From contig JAFRHL010000020.1 of NCBI GenBank assembly GCA_017433295.1, forward strand, positions 1-46,222: 46,222 bases of DNA, read 5' to 3'. The stretch comes from Eubacterium sp. (GTDB taxonomy: Bacteria > Bacillota > Clostridia > Lachnospirales > Lachnospiraceae). How positions within the stretch are numbered: the stretch's first letter is position 1; every line of letters starts with the position of its first letter. The position numbers and the translations under genes are program-made. Below, piece by piece: positions 3,888 to 45,232 of the stretch. The notes below the pieces were generated by a model. The model saw only the letters and a list, made by a program, of their open reading frames with translations. It was not told the origin of the DNA and made no database searches.

Positions 3888-5126
3888 ATGTTTACACTTT
3901 CCAAGGATAACATAATTGAATATCTGAAGGACCATATGCCCGGGTTTGATGAAACGGTGCCGGCCAAGGTCTCCATGGTTGGAGAAGGCAGTGAGGAAGA
4001 AGATGGTGACGGGTATGTGAATCATATTTTCCGTGTGCAGATGCCGGGGAAAGCTTATGTGGTAAAGCAGGGGCTTCCCATCGCCAGAGTTTCGCAGATG
4101 CCTATGGATATAAACCGGAACAGACTGGAATATGACAGTATGCGTATCCGTTATTCCATTGTTCCCGAGTATACTCCCGCACTGATGTTCCAGGACCAGG
4201 AGAATAATGTCTTTGTCATGGAGGATGTATCCTGCCTGCAGATCGTGAGGTTTCAGCTCAACAATAACGTAAAGTTTGAAAATTTAGGACGTATGTGCGG
4301 AGAGTGCCTTGCGAAGACTGATTTTTATACCTCCGAGTATTATCTGGACCGGGAAGAGTACCGGAAGCTGATGTACCGTTTTGATAATACATCCATGCGT
4401 AAGATCATGGAGGACGGTATGTTTCTTGATATGTTCCGGGAACCGCTGGAGGACAGGCTGGGTTCGGAGTTTGCTCATTTTGCAGGACAGTTCAGCCGTG
4501 ACAGCCGCTATGTGACAGAGCTTTACAAGCTGCGCAGGTCTTATATGAGCCATGCCGATGCCCTGATCCACGCAGATTTCCATACATCCAATATTCTGGC
4601 ATCCGATGATGAGATGAAAGTGATCGATATGGAGTTTTCCTTTATGGGACCCTTTGGTTATGATCTGGGATATCTCACCGGGAATCTGATCTCCCAGTAT
4701 GCCGCAGCCTGTTTTAAACCTTTTTCCACTGAGGAAGACAGGTATTCCTTTAAGGCATATCTTCTGGCAACCATCAAGAGGATGTATTATACTTATTTCC
4801 TCACATTTACCAGCTGCTGGAATGAAGACTGTAAACTGAGATATCAGGATCAGAACGGGTTGCGCCGCAGTATTTTTGATGAGATTATGGTAGATTCTGT
4901 GGGTTATGCTTCCATGGTTAACTGGTTCAGGAGTGCCAGTGTGATCCCTTATCCGGACTTTGACGTGATAGAGGACATCAATGCAAGGCGTCATGCAGTT
5001 ACCTTATCCCTGCTTATCGACTGGCAGATCATGTTTGCAAGATACGGTTACCGGTCAGTGGATGATCTGATCGATACGATTTTGTTTGTGGAGAAGAATT
5101 ATTACAGCTTATCAGGGCGGGAATAG
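3888..5126 (+). CDS. mtnK: S-methyl-5-thioribose kinase-like phosphotransferase
   Basis: This appears to phosphorylate 5-methylthioribose with ATP in methionine salvage. The 412-residue chain is close to MtnK length. It has an N-terminal lobe with YVVKQGLP supplying the ATP-site lysine, the VMEDVS hinge-like segment, the catalytic motif HADFHTSNILA (about residues 228-238), and the metal-binding stretch KVIDMEFSFMGPFGYDLGYLTGNLI, close to the MtnK signature. No other methionine-salvage gene is visible nearby, so its physiological substrate is not confirmed by context. Another aminoglycoside phosphotransferase-fold small-molecule kinase is the main alternative. It stands alone between the por T-box and a strong terminator. 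Confidence 0.78.
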   Translation: MFTLSKDNIIEYLKDHMPGFDETVPAKVSMVGEGSEEEDGDGYVNHIFRVQMPGKAYVVKQGLPIARVSQMPMDINRNRLEYDSMRIRYSIVPEYTPALMFQDQENNVFVMEDVSCLQIVRFQLNNNVKFENLGRMCGECLAKTDFYTSEYYLDREEYRKLMYRFDNTSMRKIMEDGMFLDMFREPLEDRLGSEFAHFAGQFSRDSRYVTELYKLRRSYMSHADALIHADFHTSNILASDDEMKVIDMEFSFMGPFGYDLGYLTGNLISQYAAACFKPFSTEEDRYSFKAYLLATIKRMYYTYFLTFTSCWNEDCKLRYQDQNGLRRSIFDEIMVDSVGYASMVNWFRSASVIPYPDFDVIEDINARRHAVTLSLLIDWQIMFARYGYRSVDDLIDTILFVEKNYYSLSGRE

Positions 5127-5171
5127 TGGATAAAAACCGGCGGAGCCGGAATGAATATATTAAAAAATGAC

Positions 5172-5217
5172 AAAGATATGCTGACATCGGCCTTTGCCGG
5201 TCAGCATATCTTTTTTT
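5172..5217 (+). terminator. Strong intrinsic terminator after mtnK
   Basis: AAGATATGCTGAC pairs with GTCAGCATATCT, enclosing an inner CGGC..GCCG stem, and is followed by a run of seven T residues. It ends the mtnK transcript before the convergent bioY gene. Confidence 0.9.
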
Positions 5218-5285
5218 ACCTGTATGTTATCTGCACTTGGGAAAAAACCGTGACGTTGAGTGGCTGATTACAGGATGCCGCCATA

Positions 5286-5858
5286 TTAATTTCCGAATAA
5301 TCCGGCGGCTGTCAGTCTTTTTTTAATGAGAGGCCCTGTAATTACCGCAATAATTATTTTTATCAGATCTCCGGGAATATATGGTATTACTCCTGCCCAT
5401 AATCCCTGTATAAAGGTCAGATGTGCCACATAGCATAGCCAGACAGTTCCAAATATATAGTTTACGGCAGAACCCAGGATCAGGCCCAGACCTTGCCCGA
5501 CAGGACCGGAAAACTTCTCAAAGGACAGGCCGCAGATAATTGCCATAAAAAAGAAACCTATAAGGTACCCGCCGGTCGGTCCTAACAGCTTTCCGAAACC
5601 ACAGGAGAAACCGGAGAAGACAGGTAGTCCGGACAGCCCGATCATCAGGTAGATCAGGTAGCTTAATGCCCCGAGTTTCCACCCAAGGAGGCAAACGGTA
5701 ATATAAACAGCCAGATTGGTAAAAGAAATTGGTACAGGGCTGACCGGTATCGGGATTGACAGAGGACCCAGTACACAGATAAAGGCAGCCATAACGGCGG
5801 TCAGGGTTATTTGTCTGGAAGTCATCCCTTCTTCAGACGTTGTGGAATTGCTTTTCAT
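5286..5858 (-). CDS. bioY: BioY biotin transporter (ECF S-component)
   Basis: Membrane substrate-binding subunit for biotin uptake, working alone or with a shared energy-coupling factor module. The 190-residue protein has about six hydrophobic segments. It carries BioY family marks: LTAVMAAFICVLGPLSIPIP, PISFTNLAVYITVCLLGWKLG, then YLMIGLSGLPVFSGF and GPTGGYLIGF. The start at 5858 has an AGGTG site on the minus strand. No ecfA or ecfT genes are present here, so it probably shares ECF subunits encoded elsewhere. The promoter is overlapped by a palindrome that fits a BirA operator, so biotin repression is predicted. Confidence 0.95.
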   Translation of the reverse strand: MKSNSTTSEEGMTSRQITLTAVMAAFICVLGPLSIPIPVSPVPISFTNLAVYITVCLLGWKLGALSYLIYLMIGLSGLPVFSGFSCGFGKLLGPTGGYLIGFFFMAIICGLSFEKFSGPVGQGLGLILGSAVNYIFGTVWLCYVAHLTFIQGLWAGVIPYIPGDLIKIIIAVITGPLIKKRLTAAGLFGN

Positions 5859-37046: not shown

Positions 37047-38039
37047 ATGAAAGCTTTGACTGTAATAAAATCAACTTTTCTGATTTGCGCTTTAGTGCTT
37101 ACCGTGACTGTTGTGCAAAAAAGCGGCAGGAATGTATACGCAAGCACTTTTGAGGAATCAGTGGATAAAGATATTGTGAATGATACTACACCGGTTGAAC
37201 CGGCCGGCAGTGATGTTAAGGTAGTGCAGTCTGTGACAAAGCTGGCTTCAAAGAGATGGATACAGTCCTTTGCCCAGGATAATAAGTATTATTATTTTAT
37301 CCAGATGACCAATCCATATAAAGGACATCTGAGGATCACGAGAGTGAAGTATACAGGTCTGGGCCGTTATTTGAAAGATTATATGGATCTTAAGTATTTT
37401 GGTCATGCGACCAATCTGGACTGCTCACTATACAAGGGAAAAACCTATCTCTGGACAGGGTCTAATGCCGTATCGGGATCCGATGTTTCAAGAGCGATCA
37501 CCGGTTTTCAGTATAAGAAGAATAAAACCCTTTATCATCATGGCACGTACACTTATAAGATACCAAAAGGCAGATGGGGTAAATATGTAACGAATGTGTA
37601 TCCTGCGATTAATGAGAAAAGTACAAAGCTGGCGGTACGGTATACATACAGGGGGAACCAGTATTATCAGACTTATTCATTAACAAAGGGTACCAGGATC
37701 AATATCAGGAAACCTCTTAAGCAGGTATCGCTTCCATCCACCGCGGGAGATTTCCAGGGCTTTGATCTCTATGGAAGCAATACCATTTATACCATCGAGG
37801 GAAGTCCTACGAAGGTTTTTCTTTCGGCCTATGATAAGCGGAGGGTATTTCAGCCAACCATCATAAGAACCTGGAATTTATCCAGCCATCTGGGAAGCAA
37901 CAGGGTTATTAACGGAGCCCAGGGGCTGCCCTTCCGGGAACCGGAAGGGATCAAAGCTCTGAAGGGCCGTGTGCTTCATATCATGTTTGTATCATTCCGT
38001 CTGACAGACCAGTCCTGTAATATTTACAAGGTGAAATAA
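37047..38039 (+). CDS. Secreted protein with a TagC/helveticin-like beta-propeller
   Basis: A 330-residue exported protein with a signal peptide (TVIKSTFLICALVLTVTVVQKSGRNVYA) and a mature part rich in short beta-strand repeats. WIQSFAQDNKYYYFIQM, RITRVKYTG, MDLKYFGHATNLDCSLYKGKTYLWTGSNA and AINEKSTKLAVRYTYRGNQYYQTYSL recall the propeller region shared by TagC, phage receptor-binding proteins and helveticin-like proteins. I infer cell-surface or glycan binding; I see no catalytic signature, and bacteriocin activity cannot be claimed. The ribosome site GGAAAGGAG is strong. It stands alone between two minus-strand genes. Confidence 0.6.
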   Translation: MKALTVIKSTFLICALVLTVTVVQKSGRNVYASTFEESVDKDIVNDTTPVEPAGSDVKVVQSVTKLASKRWIQSFAQDNKYYYFIQMTNPYKGHLRITRVKYTGLGRYLKDYMDLKYFGHATNLDCSLYKGKTYLWTGSNAVSGSDVSRAITGFQYKKNKTLYHHGTYTYKIPKGRWGKYVTNVYPAINEKSTKLAVRYTYRGNQYYQTYSLTKGTRINIRKPLKQVSLPSTAGDFQGFDLYGSNTIYTIEGSPTKVFLSAYDKRRVFQPTIIRTWNLSSHLGSNRVINGAQGLPFREPEGIKALKGRVLHIMFVSFRLTDQSCNIYKVK

Positions 38040-38086: not shown

Positions 38087-38521
38087 TTACAGATAGCATC
38101 GCAGATCTTTTGACAACTTCTCCTCCAGGGATATGACCTGACGGGTCATATCCCTGGCTTTTTCATCCGCGTCATTGTAACGGTTAAGATACTTGCCCAG
38201 GGAACGAACCCCCATATCACATCCGGCGCACATCAGGTCCGCGATGGTATCATCTCCCGGATTCATTGTCATCTTCATATTCGTTTTCATCCAGGACATG
38301 CTCTTGGCGATCATGGAGGGGTCTTCATCCTTCTGGTGATAGCTGGTCAAAAGGGCATGGGTCTCATTTCCAAGCTTTTCGTGTTCGGCTCTGCTGTGGG
38401 AAAGGATGTCCCGCATCTGATCATTTTTTATATTATCCATGACCTCATCAATGGAATCCACTGCCATTTTTATACCGCTGTTACATTCCTTTAACAATTC
38501 TATCGTATCATTTTCTTTCAT
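38087..38521 (-). CDS. Ferritin-like four-helix protein (DUF2383-type)
   Basis: A 144-residue, almost entirely helical protein. The pattern (IELLKECNSGIKMAVDSIDEVMDNIKNDQMRDIL.HSRAEHEKLGNETHALL, a Met-rich linker MSWMKTNMKMTMNPGDD, then ADLMCAGCDMGVRSLGKYLNRYNDADEKARDMTRQVISLEEKLSKDL) fits small ferritin-like bundle proteins of the DUF2383 kind common in anaerobic Firmicutes. Metal-binding Glu and His residues are present (SRAEHEKL), but no complete di-iron motif can be confirmed by eye. A GGAGAC site precedes the ATG. Role unknown; stress or metal handling is possible. Confidence 0.65.
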   Translation of the reverse strand: MKENDTIELLKECNSGIKMAVDSIDEVMDNIKNDQMRDILSHSRAEHEKLGNETHALLTSYHQKDEDPSMIAKSMSWMKTNMKMTMNPGDDTIADLMCAGCDMGVRSLGKYLNRYNDADEKARDMTRQVISLEEKLSKDLRCYL

Positions 38522-38657: not shown

Positions 38658-38686
38658 TTGGTAAATGGAATGAAATCATGTATAAT
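38658..38686 (+). promoter_or_regulatory. Promoter of the TerY-P-like module
   Basis: TTGGTA and TATAAT are separated by 17 bases, about 50 bases before the first VWA gene. No further terminator or strong promoter is evident between it and 44189, so the six genes are probably one transcript. Confidence 0.75.
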
Positions 38687-38736
38687 GATAGGCAGTGATG
38701 ATTCGTATATAATAAATAAACCGGGAGGGATGAAAA

Positions 38737-39696
38737 ATGCCAAAATGGATCGATTTAAATCAGGTGGATGATGAGGATATTATTGTCAGTAAAAACCGTC
38801 TGAGTTATAATGCGGATTCGGATCAGGTTTCAGTTGTTTCCGCCGCCGCACCTTTTCAGGCGGGAGAAAATGATTTTCTTGATGTCATGGAGCCTGCCAA
38901 GAAGAGCATGACCATATTTTTCCTGATCGATGTTTCAGGAAGTATGAAGGGAACAAAAATCGGGTCTTTAAACAGCACCATGGAGGAACTTCTGCCCTCT
39001 CTCATTGGTGTGGGGGAAGCCTCTACGGATGTGAAGATCGCCGTGATGAAGTTTTCTACCCAGGTGGAATGGATCACTCCCGAACCGGTCCGGATCGAAG
39101 AATACCAGTACTGGAACCGCCTGGAGGCGGAGGGGCTGACTTTTATGGGAGATGCCTTCATGGAGCTGTCCAGAAAGCTGTCCAGGAGTTCTTTCCTGAG
39201 TTCTCCCTCGCTTTCCTTTGCACCGGTAATTTTTCTGCTTTCTGATGGATCCCCCAATGATGACTGGAAGAAGGGGCTGAAGACCCTTAAGGAGAACAGA
39301 TGGTTCCAGCATGGTTTAAAGATTGCCCTCGGTATCGGATCCCAGGTCAATATGGAGGTGCTTCGTGAGTTTACAGGCAACGACGAGCTGGCAGTACAGG
39401 CAAGGAATGCCGACCAGCTCCGGGAACTGATCAAGCTTATGGCCATCACTTCCTCCCAGATTGGCAGCAGAAGCCTTGCCCTGGTGGATAACAGGAGTCC
39501 GGAGCCGACAGCTTCGGGACAGGGATTTGTAAGGATGAATACCTCTGCGGTCAATTCAGGAGGGACGGCTCCCACGGAAGAGCTGGTGGCCAACGCAAAA
39601 CAACAGGTGCTGGTGGAAGAGATCCGCATGGGGACCAGGGATATTCTGGGTGAAGCCGTAGATCTTGATGCAGTGGATTATGATGAAGGATGGTAA
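38737..39696 (+). CDS. VWA-domain protein 1 (TerY-like)
   Basis: A 319-residue cytoplasmic protein with a von Willebrand A domain. The metal-ion-dependent adhesion site is complete: DVSGS (D65, S67, S69), T135 in GLTFMGD, and D170 in FLLSDGSP. Such TerY-type VWA proteins act as metal-dependent protein-binding scaffolds. It has a 50-residue acidic N-terminal extension, and after the VWA domain a Ser/Gly/Thr-rich linker and an acidic tail ending in DYDEGW. The second VWA protein of the cluster ends in the same DEGW. The kinase gene begins nine bases after the stop, so co-translation is likely. A GGGAGGGA ribosome site precedes the ATG. Confidence 0.93.
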   Translation: MPKWIDLNQVDDEDIIVSKNRLSYNADSDQVSVVSAAAPFQAGENDFLDVMEPAKKSMTIFFLIDVSGSMKGTKIGSLNSTMEELLPSLIGVGEASTDVKIAVMKFSTQVEWITPEPVRIEEYQYWNRLEAEGLTFMGDAFMELSRKLSRSSFLSSPSLSFAPVIFLLSDGSPNDDWKKGLKTLKENRWFQHGLKIALGIGSQVNMEVLREFTGNDELAVQARNADQLRELIKLMAITSSQIGSRSLALVDNRSPEPTASGQGFVRMNTSAVNSGGTAPTEELVANAKQQVLVEEIRMGTRDILGEAVDLDAVDYDEGW

Positions 39697-39705
39697 AGTA
39701 TTATA

Positions 39706-41061
39706 ATGAGAGAGTTGAAGATCAGAGAACGCATACAGATTGAAGCCGGCGGCGAAGCTGTTGTGGAACGGGAGCTGGGCCGGGGAGGACAGGGTATTGT
39801 TTACCAGGTCCGGTACCGGGGAAGGGAGTATGCCCTGAAGTGGTATTTCATCAGCCGGATCCGGAATCCGGAGGCATTCCGGGCCAATCTCAGAAAAAAT
39901 ATAGAAGACGGAGCTCCGGAAGACGGCAAACAATTCATCTGGCCGCTGTTTTTGACAAAACAGAAAAAGAAGGGAGCCTTTGGTTACCTGATGGAGCTTG
40001 CGCCGGCAGGATATGACTCCTTTACAGATATTTATAACGGATATAAGTGGGAAAAGCCCCGGGTGAAGGGACAGCCCGCCGTCAAAAGGAAGGTCAGGTT
40101 TGCTTCCCTTGATATCATGTTGACTGCAGCCATTAATATTGTCAGGGCTTTCCGGGCCCTTCATCTTTCAGGAAAAAGCTATCAGGATCTTAATGATGGC
40201 GGATTCTTTATCAATACAAGGACCGGTGATGTGCTGGTATGCGACTGCGATAATGTGGCTGCCGACGGAGACAATTTCGGTATCGGCGGTATGCCGGGCT
40301 TTATGGCTCCGGAGGTAGTAAGAGGCGCTGCCAAACCCAATGTCCTGACGGACAGGTATTCTCTGGCGGTGGTTCTTTTTAAACTGTTCTTCCGGGGAGA
40401 CCCTCTGGAGGGAAGCAAGGTCCTCAAATGTGTGGTTATGACCGAGGAAAATGACCTGATCCATTACGGAAAAGATCCGGTTTTCATCTATGACCCGGCC
40501 AATGCCTCTAACCGTCCTGTCAACGGGGTCCATGATAATGTGATCCGGCTCTGGCAGATCTATCCTGATTTTATCCGGCAGGCCTTTACCATGTCCTTTA
40601 CCTACGGGATCCGGGAGCCCAATGCCAGGATCATAGAAAAGAACTGGATCAGGATGCTGATCCAGCTGAAACTGGATATTGTCCACTGCGGCTGCGGGAA
40701 GACGGCCTTCTCCTCTGCCTTTGAAGAACAGGGGGACCATATCCTGATATGTCGTAATTGCGGCAGTACCATATATACTCTGGGTATTAATGATTATGAA
40801 CTTCCTTTGAATCCCGGGGCAAGGCTATACAGGTGCCTGACTGAAAAAAATAACGATGATTTTCAGACAGTTACAGGAACAGTGATCGAGAACCGGCTGA
40901 AGAAAGGCCTGTTTGGTATAAAGAATCAATCAGGGAAAACCTGGAAAGCCCTGTTTCCGGACCGGTCCGTCAGAGATGTGGCCCCCGGAAAAGCAGCGCC
41001 TGTATGGAAGGGACTGCAAATTGATTTTGGGGAAGATCTAAAAGGTGAGATTCTTCTTTAG
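39706..41061 (+). CDS. Ser/Thr-type protein kinase with zinc ribbon and C-terminal beta domain (TerY-P kinase)
   Basis: A 451-residue predicted protein kinase. Gly loop GRGGQG (25-30), lysine in YALKWY (K45), catalytic-loop Asp in YQDLNDGGFF (D161), metal-site region VCDCDN (D180 and D182) and APE (201-203) are visible. The loop Asn expected five residues after the catalytic Asp is Gly166, so metal binding may be altered. After the kinase come a CxC..CxxC zinc ribbon (C328, C330, C349, C352) and a C-terminal beta-rich domain (LKKGLFGIKNQSGKTWKALFPDRSVRDV). In TerY-P systems the kinase and PP2C presumably set the phosphorylation state of the VWA partner. The next gene starts nine bases later. 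Confidence 0.88.
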   Translation: MRELKIRERIQIEAGGEAVVERELGRGGQGIVYQVRYRGREYALKWYFISRIRNPEAFRANLRKNIEDGAPEDGKQFIWPLFLTKQKKKGAFGYLMELAPAGYDSFTDIYNGYKWEKPRVKGQPAVKRKVRFASLDIMLTAAINIVRAFRALHLSGKSYQDLNDGGFFINTRTGDVLVCDCDNVAADGDNFGIGGMPGFMAPEVVRGAAKPNVLTDRYSLAVVLFKLFFRGDPLEGSKVLKCVVMTEENDLIHYGKDPVFIYDPANASNRPVNGVHDNVIRLWQIYPDFIRQAFTMSFTYGIREPNARIIEKNWIRMLIQLKLDIVHCGCGKTAFSSAFEEQGDHILICRNCGSTIYTLGINDYELPLNPGARLYRCLTEKNNDDFQTVTGTVIENRLKKGLFGIKNQSGKTWKALFPDRSVRDVAPGKAAPVWKGLQIDFGEDLKGEILL

Positions 41062-41070
41062 GTGGTGTAT

Positions 41071-42222
41071 ATGAGCGTTAATAAAGAGTTCAGCCCTGTT
41101 ACTTTAAGAGAAATCAGAGAAGAGAAAACAGCCACCAGGGCGGAGGATACGGGAAAGACTGTGGAAAAAAGCATTCACTTTTCTTCTATGGATTCTTTGA
41201 TTCAGGGAGCCCTTTCCCTGGTATGCTTTTTTGAACATATCCATAAAGAAGGTTATGTTTATGGCGCTAATGCGGCAGACCCTTTTCGTTTTTCCCTTCA
41301 GACCGGTGAGCTTACAGAGGACGCGAAAAAATATCTGGTTAAAGCCTATACCATGGTAGCCGAAAGGCCGGAGGGGATCACTTTGAATGAATTTCTGGCG
41401 CCCGAGCTGGTGGAAGCCGCTGCATCGGGGCAGGGGTTCCAGTTTACCCCGGAGACCGACTGGTATTATCTGTCGGTATTCCTGTTTGAATACTTCTTTC
41501 ATACAGGCTCACCTTTCGAGGGGAAGATGATGGTAAACCGGTGTTTTCTTTCACCTCTGGAGAAGGAAATGTACCGCGTGGAAAATGGCCGGTTCTGCAT
41601 GGATTCGGATGAGGAACAAAATGCGCCGGTAAAGGGAATCCAGGATAAACTGATCCGGTATTGGGGAGAATATCCGGAAATGCTCCGGAGAATGTTCCGG
41701 AGAGCCTTTATTGAGGGCGGTACTCTTTCCAATCTTCGTCCTTCTGAAGTGGACTGGAAACAGCTGCTGGTGAGGATGGCCATGGACTATCAGACATGCG
41801 GATGCGGTTTTAAAGGGTTCTCTCATTTCCTCAAAGAGAAGGGTAACGGAACTCTGGTCTGTCCCGGATGCGGAAAGCTCTTTTACCCCTTAAGCAACGG
41901 TATGGACCGGATCCTTTTGAAGGAAGGCGGAAAACTCTATGCCTGTCAGACCGGAAGGAATCCCTTTGATAAAGATACCGTGACAGGGTTGATCGTTGAA
42001 AACAGACAGAGAAAAGGATTATTTGGTATAAAAAATGTCAGCGGTGGAATCTGGAGGGGAATGTATCCGGATAATACCGTAAAGGAAATCGGCAGGAACC
42101 AGGGGATCCCCATCTGGGACGGCATGAGGATCCGTTTTGAGTTGGGAGAGGATTGGAGCCTTAAGCTGACCCGGCCGGTAAAGTTATATGAAGAAAGTGA
42201 GGTTGATGGGAATGAGCAGTAG
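41071..42222 (+). CDS. Pseudokinase paralogue with zinc ribbon and the same C-terminal domain
   Basis: A 383-residue paralogue of the preceding kinase that lacks the N-lobe, with no Gly loop or ATP-site lysine. The catalytic-loop region reads GYVYGANAADPFRF where the kinase has KSYQDLNDGGFFI, so the Asp is gone. It retains the APE segment (110-112), the helical C-lobe (TPETDWYYLSVFLFEYFFHTGSPFEGK), the zinc ribbon (C243, C245, C264, C267) and the C-terminal beta domain (RQRKGLFGIKNVSGGIWRGMYPDNTVKEI). It should be catalytically dead and probably binds partners or regulates the kinase. I start at the ATG at 41071, six bases after AGGTGG; GTGs upstream are in frame. The last 11 bases overlap the second VWA gene. 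Confidence 0.85.
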   Translation: MSVNKEFSPVTLREIREEKTATRAEDTGKTVEKSIHFSSMDSLIQGALSLVCFFEHIHKEGYVYGANAADPFRFSLQTGELTEDAKKYLVKAYTMVAERPEGITLNEFLAPELVEAAASGQGFQFTPETDWYYLSVFLFEYFFHTGSPFEGKMMVNRCFLSPLEKEMYRVENGRFCMDSDEEQNAPVKGIQDKLIRYWGEYPEMLRRMFRRAFIEGGTLSNLRPSEVDWKQLLVRMAMDYQTCGCGFKGFSHFLKEKGNGTLVCPGCGKLFYPLSNGMDRILLKEGGKLYACQTGRNPFDKDTVTGLIVENRQRKGLFGIKNVSGGIWRGMYPDNTVKEIGRNQGIPIWDGMRIRFELGEDWSLKLTRPVKLYEESEVDGNEQ

Positions 42223-43018
42223 ATATATTCAGACGGATGTCATGGATATTGATCCGCTGGAGACAATGCCCCCGGCAAAAAAGAGTATGGTCATATTCTT
42301 TCTGGTGGATACCTCCAGCAGTATGGAAGGCTCTAAGCTGGAATCATTGAATAAAGTAATGGGAGATATTTTGCCGGAACTCATCGGAGTCGGCGAGGCA
42401 GGAACGGACGTAAAGATTGCTGTCATGTCCTTCTCATCCGGGTGGGAGTGGATCACTCCGGAGCCGGTTCTCATTGAAGAATACCAGAAATGGCAGGACC
42501 TCAGCGCAGACGGGGTGACAGATCTGGGTGATGCCTGTCTGGAGCTCTCCTCAAAGCTCTCAAGAAATGGTTTCCTCCATTCCCCGTCACTTTCATATGC
42601 CCCTGTGATTTTCCTCATTACAGACGGTTATCCCACGGATAATTATAAGAAGGGATTTGAGATGCTTCGGAAAAACCGCTGGTTTAAGTACGGCTTAAAG
42701 GTTGCCCTGGCCATCGGCTCCAATGTGGACCTTGACGTCCTCCATGAATTTACCGATGACGAGGAGCTGGTTCTTCAGGCCTTCGGGGCTGAGATGCTGA
42801 AAAAGCTGGTCCGGGAAATTGCGGTCACTTCCTCAAAGATCGGGAGTACCAGTATGACTCTGACTGAGTCCGCAGGGGAAAGGGCCCTTTCCGATGTGGC
42901 AGGAGCAAAAAAAGAGCAGATGATCGAGGCAGTTCAGGAGATCAAACAGGATATTCTCGGGGTAGAAGACCTGGAAGACTTAAGCGATCTGGATATAGAA
43001 TTCGATGAGGGATGGTAG
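42212..43018 (+). CDS. VWA-domain protein 2 (TerY-like)
   Basis: A 268-residue VWA protein, clearly a paralogue of the first in the module: both share the opening PAKKSM.IFFL.D.S.SM, GVGEA.TDVKIAVM.FS, EWITPEPV and SPSLS.APVIFL. Its MIDAS is complete (D33, S35, S37, T103, D138). It lacks the long N-terminal extension of its partner and ends in EFDEGW. I start at the ATG at 42212, nine bases after GTGAGG, rather than the in-frame ATGs at 42188 or 42206. It overlaps the pseudokinase gene by 11 bases and abuts the phosphatase gene. Two VWA proteins suggest distinct targets or a heterodimer. Confidence 0.92.
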   Translation: MSSRYIQTDVMDIDPLETMPPAKKSMVIFFLVDTSSSMEGSKLESLNKVMGDILPELIGVGEAGTDVKIAVMSFSSGWEWITPEPVLIEEYQKWQDLSADGVTDLGDACLELSSKLSRNGFLHSPSLSYAPVIFLITDGYPTDNYKKGFEMLRKNRWFKYGLKVALAIGSNVDLDVLHEFTDDEELVLQAFGAEMLKKLVREIAVTSSKIGSTSMTLTESAGERALSDVAGAKKEQMIEAVQEIKQDILGVEDLEDLSDLDIEFDEGW

Positions 43019-43019
43019 G

Positions 43020-43823
43020 ATGCTTCGCGGATTACATGCTACAGTGACGGGAGACAGTCACATAAAAAAGGGAATCGTCTGTCAGGACAGCTCAGGGCAT
43101 TACGTTACAGACTCCTTCGGTATTGCCGTGGTTGCCGACGGACATGGCAGCCCAAAGCATTTCCGCAGTGATGTGGGGTCAAAGATAGCTGTAAAGATCA
43201 CAACAGGCCTTCTGACTAAATATATGGACAGGCCGGATTTTAAAGAACAATTCCATATGCATCCGGACTTTATTCTCGGGCAGATGGAAAAACAGATCCT
43301 CATGAAATGGCGGGAGGCTGTGGAGGTATATCATGAAGAAAACCCCCTTTCAGAAGAAGAAGGGGAGAAAGTAAAAGTCTTGACCGATTCCGGAAAGCTC
43401 CTCCCCACGGCTGTGATCTACGGAAGCACCGTGCTGGCTGGGGTGCTGGCGCAGGATTTTGCCTTTGGTCTGGTGCTGGGGGACGGAGGATTAGTAGTTC
43501 TTGACGGCAGCGGCAGCCCGTCGATGCCGGTGGAGGATAAAAACTCCCATGCAAATTATACCTCTTCCCTTTGTAATACAGGGGCTGTCAGTTATTTTGA
43601 ACACTGGTACAGCTGGTCTGCTCCGGCAGCCCTGTTCGTCTCGACAGACGGCCTGTATAAGTCATTTGCCAGCCGGGAAGACTTCCTCAGATACCACGGA
43701 CTGCTGGCCCATATGCTGTCAGACCGGGAAAATACCATGAAGAGCCTGAAGAGGAATTTTGAAAAAAGAACAAGAGAGGGCAGCGGAGATGATATTTCCA
43801 TTGCCGCAGTATATAATATATAA
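43020..43823 (+). CDS. PP2C-family protein phosphatase
   Basis: A 267-residue metal-dependent Ser/Thr phosphatase. Metal-binding residues of the PP2C fold are visible: D23 in CQDSSGHY, D40-G41 in VVADGHGS, D210 in VSTDGLYKSF, and D257-D258 in GSGDDISIAAVY. It should reverse phosphorylation made by the kinase of this module. I start at the ATG at 43020, nine bases after GAGG, because an earlier in-frame ATG at 43005 overlaps the VWA gene and has no ribosome site. It begins one base after the VWA stop and ends 12 bases before the TerY-C gene. Confidence 0.92.
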   Translation: MLRGLHATVTGDSHIKKGIVCQDSSGHYVTDSFGIAVVADGHGSPKHFRSDVGSKIAVKITTGLLTKYMDRPDFKEQFHMHPDFILGQMEKQILMKWREAVEVYHEENPLSEEEGEKVKVLTDSGKLLPTAVIYGSTVLAGVLAQDFAFGLVLGDGGLVVLDGSGSPSMPVEDKNSHANYTSSLCNTGAVSYFEHWYSWSAPAALFVSTDGLYKSFASREDFLRYHGLLAHMLSDRENTMKSLKRNFEKRTREGSGDDISIAAVYNI

Positions 43824-43835
43824 GGAGGTCCTGAC

Positions 43836-44189
43836 ATGAAAAAGGAGGCCAGCGTGATCCTTTCCAAATGTAATCAGGAAAATAAGCTTTATGGGATCCG
43901 CATAGAAAAAAGAGAGAATGACTGGGTAAGAACCTGGGCTTTTCCCATAAAAGAGGAAACAGCAGAAAAAGAAGGCTTTGACAAGGTAAAATTCACTGGC
44001 AGCTTCTATACAGACGAAGAATACCCCGGATGCCCTTACTGCGGCAGCAAAAAATGTTTTGTCTGCGGCAGCTGCGGGAAAATCACCTGCTATGACGGCT
44101 CGGAAAAAGTAGTATGCAGCTGGTGCGGTGCCGGAGGAACCGCTTCCCGTGACGATGAGAAGATGGATGTGTCCGGCGGAGGATTTTGA
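43836..44189 (+). CDS. TerY-C type zinc-binding protein
   Basis: A 117-residue protein with a C-terminal cluster of eight cysteines (C66, C69, C74, C77, C80, C85, C94, C97) in the pattern YPGCPYCGSKKCFVCGSCGK, then CSWCGAGG, matching the TerY-C metal-binding domain. The N-terminal 60 residues form a small beta region with a Trp-rich stretch (NDWVRTWAFPIKEE). In many genomes TerY-C is fused to the VWA protein; here it is a separate gene, so it probably docks on one or both VWA partners. A strong AAGGAGG ribosome site precedes it. The protein ends in SGGGF. Confidence 0.85.
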   Translation: MKKEASVILSKCNQENKLYGIRIEKRENDWVRTWAFPIKEETAEKEGFDKVKFTGSFYTDEEYPGCPYCGSKKCFVCGSCGKITCYDGSEKVVCSWCGAGGTASRDDEKMDVSGGGF

Positions 44190-44230: not shown

Positions 44231-44259
44231 TTGTTTTTTTATTCAGTATTTGATATAAT
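44231..44259 (+). promoter_or_regulatory. Promoter of cysE
   Basis: TTGTTT and TATAAT are separated by 17 bases, 22 bases before the chosen cysE start. It suggests cysE is transcribed separately from the TerY-P-like module. Confidence 0.65.
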
Positions 44260-44281
44260 CGTCTCTAAAAGTGAGGTAAAT

Positions 44282-45232
44282 ATGGAAAAATCTATGAGGG
44301 ATATTATTTTACAGGCAGCCGGAGAGATGTCTAAAAGCTGTCAGTCAATGGATTTTATCGTATCCAAGGGGGAACGGCGTCTACCCGATAAAGGGTCAGT
44401 GATACGTATTGTCAAGGGTTTAAGAAGGACGATCTTTCCAGGTTTTTTCGGAGATGAGAATATAACCATATTATCTCCCGATTTTTTTATCGGGGATTAT
44501 CTTACCCATGTATATGGGGAACTCAAGGCCCAGATATCATCTGCATTATATTACAGGGATTATGATGACAAGACCATGGACCAGATCCGCCGGGAGGCAG
44601 ACTATATCTGTGCTGTGTTTTTTCAGAAGCTTCCCTGGATCCAGCAGATGCTCATGAAGGATGTCCAGGCGGGTTTCGACGGAGACCCGGCAGCCAAGGG
44701 AAGAGAGGATGTCATCGTATCTTATCCCGGACTCTTTGCCATCTATGTATACAGGATCGCCCATGTATTTTATGAACTGGACGTACCCTTCATTCCCCGT
44801 ATCATGACGGAGTACGCTCACAGCCGTACCGGCATCGATATCAATCCGGGAGCAGTGATCGGAGAATATTTCTTTATTGACCATGGTACCGGCGTGGTAA
44901 TAGGCGAGACAACAGAGATAGGGGATTATGTGAAGCTGTATCAGGGCGTAACCCTGGGGGCCCTCTCCACAAGAAAAGGACAGGACCTGTCCGGGAAAAA
45001 ACGACATCCTACCATTGGACATCATGTGACCATTTATTCCAATGCCACAGTATTAGGAGGAGAAACTGTGATCGGAGAAGGGTCTATTGTAGCCGGTGGT
45101 GCTTTTGTTACCAAGTCTGTTCCGCCATACTCAAGAGTCAGCGTGAAGAATCCGGAACTGCGGATCAAGGATTCTGACACCAGGATCGAACTGCAGACGA
45201 CGGAGAATAAGGAAGGCCTGTGGGAGATATAG
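44282..45232 (+). CDS. cysE: Serine O-acetyltransferase
   Basis: Makes O-acetylserine from serine and acetyl-CoA, the carbon precursor for cysteine. The 316-residue protein has an N-terminal helical extension and a C-terminal left-handed beta helix with hexapeptide repeats: RTGIDINPGAVIGEYFFIDHGTGVVIGETTEIGDYVKLYQGVTLGALS, then HPTIGHHVTIYSNATVLGGETVIGEGSIVAGGAFVTKSV. The catalytic Asp-His pair in IDHGTG is present. The start at 44282 has GAGG seven bases before it; an earlier in-frame ATG at 44231 overlaps the promoter. Length fits the longer EpsC-type proteins. No cysK is visible here. Confidence 0.93.
   Translation: MEKSMRDIILQAAGEMSKSCQSMDFIVSKGERRLPDKGSVIRIVKGLRRTIFPGFFGDENITILSPDFFIGDYLTHVYGELKAQISSALYYRDYDDKTMDQIRREADYICAVFFQKLPWIQQMLMKDVQAGFDGDPAAKGREDVIVSYPGLFAIYVYRIAHVFYELDVPFIPRIMTEYAHSRTGIDINPGAVIGEYFFIDHGTGVVIGETTEIGDYVKLYQGVTLGALSTRKGQDLSGKKRHPTIGHHVTIYSNATVLGGETVIGEGSIVAGGAFVTKSVPPYSRVSVKNPELRIKDSDTRIELQTTENKEGLWEI

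Follow-up and report, generated by a model that had tools for sequence, protein, structure and literature searches.

Within a 46,222-nucleotide stretch of Eubacterium sp. DNA (family Lachnospiraceae; assembly GCA_017433295.1, contig JAFRHL010000020.1, positions 1 to 46,222; hereafter the window), six closely packed genes on the forward strand, between positions 38737 and 44189, make up a TerY-P triad without TerD in which both the kinase gene and the VWA gene are duplicated. TerY-P triads are described in PMC11090510, which cites Anantharaman et al. 2012, as a TerY-like VWA protein, a PP2C phosphatase and a Ser/Thr kinase fused to a zinc ribbon. In the window one kinase copy (KIN) is full length, and the other (PSK) has lost its ATP-binding half. 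We favor, at a probability of about 0.55, a stand-alone TerY-P phospho-switch in which PSK would serve as a non-catalytic partner of KIN, encoded by a module that, judging from its distribution, belongs to the core genome of one Lachnospiraceae genus. A locus of this kind would show neatly, in nature, how a bacterial kinase can duplicate so that one copy stays whole and the other is fixed as a non-catalytic half, with the reversing phosphatase in the same small operon. With six genes, a single resetting enzyme and relatives that lack the duplication, it makes the role of a pseudokinase directly testable.

In order, the open frames encode VWA1, a TerY-like VWA protein (38737..39696, 319 amino acids); KIN, a Hanks-type kinase with a zinc ribbon (39706..41061, 451 amino acids); PSK, a kinase remnant with a zinc ribbon and a paralog of KIN by alignment (41071..42222); VWA2, a paralog of VWA1 (42212..43018); a PP2C phosphatase (43020..43823); and a TerY-C zinc protein (43836..44189, 117 amino acids). 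Gene starts were picked by eye from stretches resembling ribosome-binding sites, e.g., the PSK start at ATG 41071 with a Shine-Dalgarno-like AGGTGG at 41060-41065, and the TerY-C start at ATG 43836 with GGAGG ahead; VWA2 was started at ATG 42212 and PP2C at ATG 43020, their longest frames beginning at 42188 and 43005, respectively. The genes are thus separated by 9 and 9 bases, an 11-base overlap, and 1 and 12 bases, which agrees with the spacing given in the preliminary description. Pfam assigned VWA PF00092 to VWA1 and VWA2 (6.2e-9 and 9e-8), Pkinase PF00069 to KIN (2e-9), PP2C_2 PF13672 to the phosphatase (3.4e-36) and TerY_C PF15616 to the last protein (6.5e-12), with no family above the cut-off for PSK. 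A preliminary description of the window had reported a tightly ordered six-gene module of TerY-P type, and both the order and the identity of its VWA, kinase plus zinc ribbon and PP2C components were borne out. Because the gene order is kept at one chromosomal place across the genus, the arrangement goes beyond chance.

PSK aligns to KIN solely from residue 108, at the hinge, to residue 432 (322 columns, E 3.2e-57). The N-lobe, Gly loop, catalytic Lys and HRD Asp are all absent, and a DFG cannot be recognized either, a statement limited to recognizability since the stretch where the motif would sit aligns poorly. The activation segment is swapped for a linker of variable length; PSK retains the APE motif, a near-invariant alphaF stretch, the CxC...CxxC zinc ribbon and the C-terminal region. 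Among the 24 PSK rows aligned, 22 cover the kinase part (L062 and L063 are cut), and in all 22 the Gly loop, Lys and HRD Asp are lacking; mean pairwise identity over 18 species was 0.75 in the APE-alphaF part and 0.71 in the C-terminal region versus 0.17 in the linker. A kinase homolog that has lost its catalytic Lys, HRD Asp and DFG counts as a pseudokinase, and the gene at 41071 had rightly been named one. Because the N-lobe sequence is missing, PSK, as judged from the alignment, cannot form a complete kinase fold, in keeping with what had been claimed for it. A hidden N-lobe upstream of PSK was considered and rejected, as the space between KIN and PSK is at most ~230 bases in the genus loci versus the ~300 that an N-lobe would take up. 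PSK is probably not an enzyme but a partner or regulator, because its ATP-binding half is lost yet the gene is kept in nearly every genus genome searched. A zinc ribbon plus C-terminal piece can also be its own gene: a locus from a 76% complete genome (L179, 6891-7421, reverse strand) encodes a free 177-amino-acid protein consisting of the kinase zinc ribbon and C-terminal region, with no kinase on its contig.

KIN matches kinases in the PDB by profile (E 3.9e-16) and keeps the Gly loop, K45, D161 in the HRD place and D180 in the DFG place, all of which are retained in 23/23 genus sequences. The invariant CxC and CxxC of its zinc ribbon follow the kinase domain in the alignment, together with the conserved C-terminal region. 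At position 166, where the metal-binding Asn of the catalytic loop is expected, all 23 genus sequences have Gly; we take this position to be the place of PKA N171, with helix names and PKA-type numbering transferred through the sequence alignment. Outside the genus the same position is Asn in 47/48 kinases, namely 28/28 distinct kinases of a first set (35 rows, seven being repeats) and 19/20 from further reading. The single outside Gly belongs to L184 (genome G900, from another family of the class; 3988-5310, reverse strand), a locus without PSK whose triad has one full-length kinase with VWA, PP2C and TerY-C. The Gly does not by itself show KIN to be a dead kinase, and its fixation in the genus appears to be a point new here. 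The preliminary description had spoken of an active kinase, which agrees with the retained Lys and both Asp residues and not with the Gly in place of the catalytic-loop Asn. Around residues ~106-130, the genus kinases also hold ~16 inter-lobe residues absent from the outside kinases compared.

KIN and PSK were matched in 23/24 genus genomes, the window included, the one miss being G319, which is 75% complete. All six genes lie in order on one contig in 17 of the 23 (16 fetched loci and the window), and the other six loci are cut by contig ends with their order in agreement. VWA2 comes after PSK at every genus locus whose contig extends that far, which answers the proposed check on whether the two co-occur, and the PSK frame is open at every genus locus covering the whole gene. 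The chromosomal neighbors of the operon are likewise the same across the genus. The eight named genus loci come from metagenome genomes, which bear the titles Lachnospiraceae, Eubacterium or Eubacteriales; roe deer jejunum is the source of one. In one genome, G320 (L060, L061), a separate contig carries a further VWA1-KIN that falls near that of G321 in trees; with 7% contamination, this genome is likely a mixed bin. The claim that Ter genes are missing held for TerD, which was found neither in the window's own assembly nor in any of the 24 genus genomes (0/24), TerB, TerC and TerZ not having been searched for.

Outside the genus, kinase matches (window included) numbered 10/299 in the family sample, 39/392 in the order and 8/391 in the class, where three matches at E 5.7e-4 to 8.3e-4 were not counted as relatives. 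In the phylum survey the kinase profile matched 156/398, mostly weakly and to long kinases, which we take to be ordinary PASTA-type kinases; the window and two others scored >400 bits, and a further five fell at 86-112 bits. Of the seven non-window matches among these, the two above 400 bits were read. In total 57 outside loci were read (29 in a first set and 28 later), from nine family, 38 order, seven class (three of them the weak matches) and two phylum genomes, some sampled twice. Intact kinases in these loci are full length, one per triad, and no second PSK was found among them. In the first 29 loci the PSK profile never outscored that of KIN. In the later 28 it did so for three proteins: L171 (45 vs 33 bits), a membrane protein resembling YegI that is truncated at the contig end and has catalytic motifs, and L190 and L191, frames of 75 and 83 amino acids at 21-22 bits that are too short for judgement. 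Rare co-occurrence elsewhere would have refuted the earlier interpretation; the genes do co-occur across the genus, though not beyond it. Neither VWA nor PP2C was found at 5/27 clear kinase loci of the first set (L108, L117, L118, L120, L122), nor at some later ones (such as L167, L168, L177, L181), several of the stretches being short. TerD-like frames adjoin three outside triads (L065, L068, L106), with none in the later 28 stretches. A free TerY-C protein, described at first as unusual, is not so: a separate TerY-C gene lies near several other triads (L065, L067, L069, L178, L183, L184, L186).

In all seven outgroup loci from the family (L064-L070) the kinase gene is followed by VWA and PP2C, and in three of them TerY-C comes next. 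Because of this order, PSK-VWA2-PP2C-TerY-C is seen to occupy the usual slots, with VWA1-KIN added in front; the duplication of VWA and kinase proposed earlier stands, and the mirrored order read into it gives way to a usual block preceded by an extra pair. Other outside orders also exist, with TerY-C first (L184, L186) or VWA-PP2C-kinase (L188). In gene trees, VWA1 (22 rows) and VWA2 (21 rows) each formed one clade, joined with each other against seven outgroup VWAs (100/99). Over 333 columns, 13 states were common to KIN and PSK alone, 29 to KIN and the outgroup, and one to PSK and the outgroup, and a KIN plus PSK clade had support of 92.7/97 against 26 outside kinases in the C-terminal part. 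These data place KIN and PSK as sisters, and point to a duplication that predates the radiation of the genus and postdates its split from the sampled genera. A possible route free of inversion is that kinase-VWA doubled, the first kinase was lost and the remaining kinase doubled; no intermediate was found among the loci read. For close pairs, NG86 ratios of nonsynonymous to synonymous change (dN/dS) were 0.04-0.11 for PSK (eight pairs) and 0.00-0.04 for KIN (seven), and, with six pairs each, 0.02-0.08 for VWA1, 0.02-0.05 for VWA2, 0.02-0.10 for PP2C and 0.00-0.19 for TerY-C, all of them rough because dS often approaches or exceeds 1. The PSK ratios indicate that it is held by purifying selection.

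The metal ion-dependent adhesion site (MIDAS) is intact in both VWA proteins of the window (D65/S67/S69/T135/D170 in VWA1) as well as in 22/22 VWA1 and 21/21 VWA2 of the genus. VWA1 ends in YDEGW and VWA2 in EFDEGW, and the DEGW end recurs in 21/21 fetched genus VWA1 and 20/20 complete fetched VWA2. Outside VWAs end in Trp in 32/41 cases: in the first set 20/22 end in an acidic stretch plus Trp and the other two in DDDF, and in the later set 12/19 uncut proteins end in Trp and two more in Phe. Of 422 outside frames of at least 150 amino acids in the loci of the first set, 22 have a terminal Trp, and 20 of the 22 are these VWAs. The acidic tail ending in Trp looks like a docking tail, similar, we presume, to the SSB tip. 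Intact MIDAS and the same tail in both VWAs point, if anything, to a common partner, and not to the different targets that the preliminary description had suggested for the two. The phosphatase has its ADGHG, STDG and GDD motifs, kept in 20/20 genus proteins. The TerY-C protein of the window ends in SGGGF; genus TerY-C proteins end in GGGF or GGGY (20/20 fetched), perhaps a second docking tail.

Set beside known systems, the module shares with TerY-P triads all three components, the C-terminal zinc ribbon on the kinase and the tight gene run, and differs in having two VWAs, a second kinase protein that lacks the N-lobe and an altered kinase catalytic loop. It also departs from the association of such triads with Ter genes (TerD 0/24), although PMC11090510 reports stand-alone modules, so that Ter genes are not required. 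The same paper already describes VWA duplication, which, as regards the VWAs alone, is therefore not unique: Type III-A CoCoNuT extended operons have a duplicated TerY-like VWA, and two loci that we read (L178, L180) have VWA copies without a kinase copy. In the CoCoNuT operons the MIDAS Thr is missing from the internal VWA, and the VWAs have ATPases between them, whereas the module here has both MIDAS intact and the kinase duplicated. In E. coli K-12, yegI, pphC and yegL are distant homologs of KIN, PP2C and VWA (44.9, 41.2 and 38.9 bits in a search against just these three proteins), but YegI is larger (648 amino acids), yegJ on the other strand separates yegI from pphC-yegL, and no second kinase or TerY-C is annotated at the locus. 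Bacterial pseudokinases have been called largely unexplored experimentally (PMC12599244), and a word search of that text found no VWA, zinc or truncation. Among the literature matches listed, which did not cover the founding TerY-P paper, none described a pseudokinase of a TerY-P system or, in an operon of this kind, a kinase reduced to its C-lobe.

In the switch that we favor, KIN would be the sole possible phosphotransferase of the module and the PP2C phosphatase would reverse its phosphorylation, resetting the switch. PSK could act as a non-catalytic partner through its retained C-lobe face, zinc ribbon and C-terminal region, holding or gating KIN, the VWAs or the substrate, in which case a KIN/PSK hetero-oligomer may have replaced an ancestral homo-oligomer. 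The VWAs would join the switch to its client by metal-dependent MIDAS binding and by their shared tail. Joint action of two kinase-family proteins opposite a single PF13672 phosphatase has a precedent in KKP, whose two kinases are needed together (PMC11341870). Several points weigh against this interpretation. With the catalytic-loop Asn gone from every genus KIN, its activity is not assured; the contacts of PSK with its partners are conjecture; and no client or signal of the switch was found. The VWA gene tree carries a long-branch warning, support for KIN as a single clade is weak in the tree of the C-terminal part (18.9/48), and across the seven pairs available for both genes, PSK dN is two- to sixfold KIN dN in six and 21-fold in the other, for which KIN is truncated.

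The same remnants would suit a decoy or brake, a tentative alternative to which we give perhaps one chance in a handful, in which PSK competes with KIN for the VWAs, PP2C or substrate via its copied zinc ribbon and C-terminal region and so lowers signaling. The retention of just the non-catalytic parts and the tail kept in both VWAs agree with it, but sequence cannot tell a brake from an activator and co-occurrence in one operon suits either. We think it unlikely that KIN and PSK form an obligate split kinase, with KIN, short of its metal-binding Asn, active only once the headless PSK docks via the alphaF block, a C-lobe-only pseudokinase as activating subunit and the VWA pair timing the meeting; the L184 kinase, which carries the Gly with no PSK beside it, makes this slightly less likely. 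L184 likewise tells against a further, quite unlikely case, in which the module, with the Asn lost in KIN and the N-lobe lost in PSK, would have ceased to be a kinase switch, KIN being a nucleotide-sensing scaffold and PP2C acting on the marks of another kinase. The contrast at position 166 between the genus and outside kinases speaks for such a scaffold; the Gly loop, Lys, HRD Asp and DFG Asp of all 23 KIN, their strong purifying selection, and the same Gly within the ordinary single-kinase triad of L184 speak against it.

An anti-phage or toxin-antitoxin unit, in which two kinase-family proteins are checked by one PP2C, is improbable. It finds some backing in the KKP pairing, in stand-alone TerY-P-like defense modules reported in PMC11090510, and in the weak resemblance to MADS and PD-T4-6 kinases that PADLOC gave for KIN, but PADLOC called no system and 5/6 module proteins were without a match. 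According to PMC11341870, moreover, both KKP kinases keep HRD and DFG, of which PSK has neither, FHA and cold-shock domains are named rather than zinc ribbons, and KKP is prophage-borne. Here the locus has a core character (same neighbors, 23/24 genomes, gene trees without sign of exchange), and a mobile defense island was rejected on the grounds of the chromosomal neighbors kept across the genus. The loss of the catalytic half and an evolution faster than that of KIN might suggest that PSK is a decaying pseudogene, a reading already disfavored, to which we give almost no weight and which we reject in view of purifying selection (dN/dS 0.04-0.11), the frame open at every fully covered genus locus and the near-invariant alphaF block.

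Ahead of the operon, two overlapping sigma-70-like promoter matches on the forward strand (38658..38713), known from consensus match only, read TTGGTA-17-TATAAT (38658-38686) and ATGATA-17-TATAAT (38685-38713) with 10/12 positions each. The region holds 17 sigma-70-like sites versus 8.2 in shuffles, and the best of the 17 (11/12) falls inside VWA1, so the single promoter previously posited ahead of the six genes is not demonstrated. Four flanking genes were put to Pfam, the rest of the window not being annotated, and none of them is of McrBC type, a CoCoNuT feature: 36427-36819 matches a proteasome-assembly-chaperone-like family, 37047-38039 has a hydrophobic N-terminus and a phage receptor-binding propeller domain (PF21311, 2.9e-8), 38087-38521 on the other strand matches DUF2383 just under the cut-off, and 44231-45232 has hexapeptide repeats. 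A homolog of the 37047-38039 protein lies beside the operon in 15/25 genus stretches, several of them cut short.

Near the outside TerY-P loci we also observed proteins with a shared N-terminal domain, in 20/29 loci of the first set (12 of the 20 proteins built the domain profile and the remainder were new finds) and 12/28 of the later set, including L109, L111-L114, L116, L119, L121, L065, L067, L069, L105 and L106. The 25 genus stretches contained no such protein, and searching the whole genus at E 0.1 gave matches in 3/24 genomes, the window's own not among them. The domain, of ~60-80 amino acids, had no Pfam or NCBIfam coverage in the proteins tested; those searched against Pfam carry LRR, RCC1 or Sel1 repeats fused to it. 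These proteins are candidate sensors or clients of the switch.

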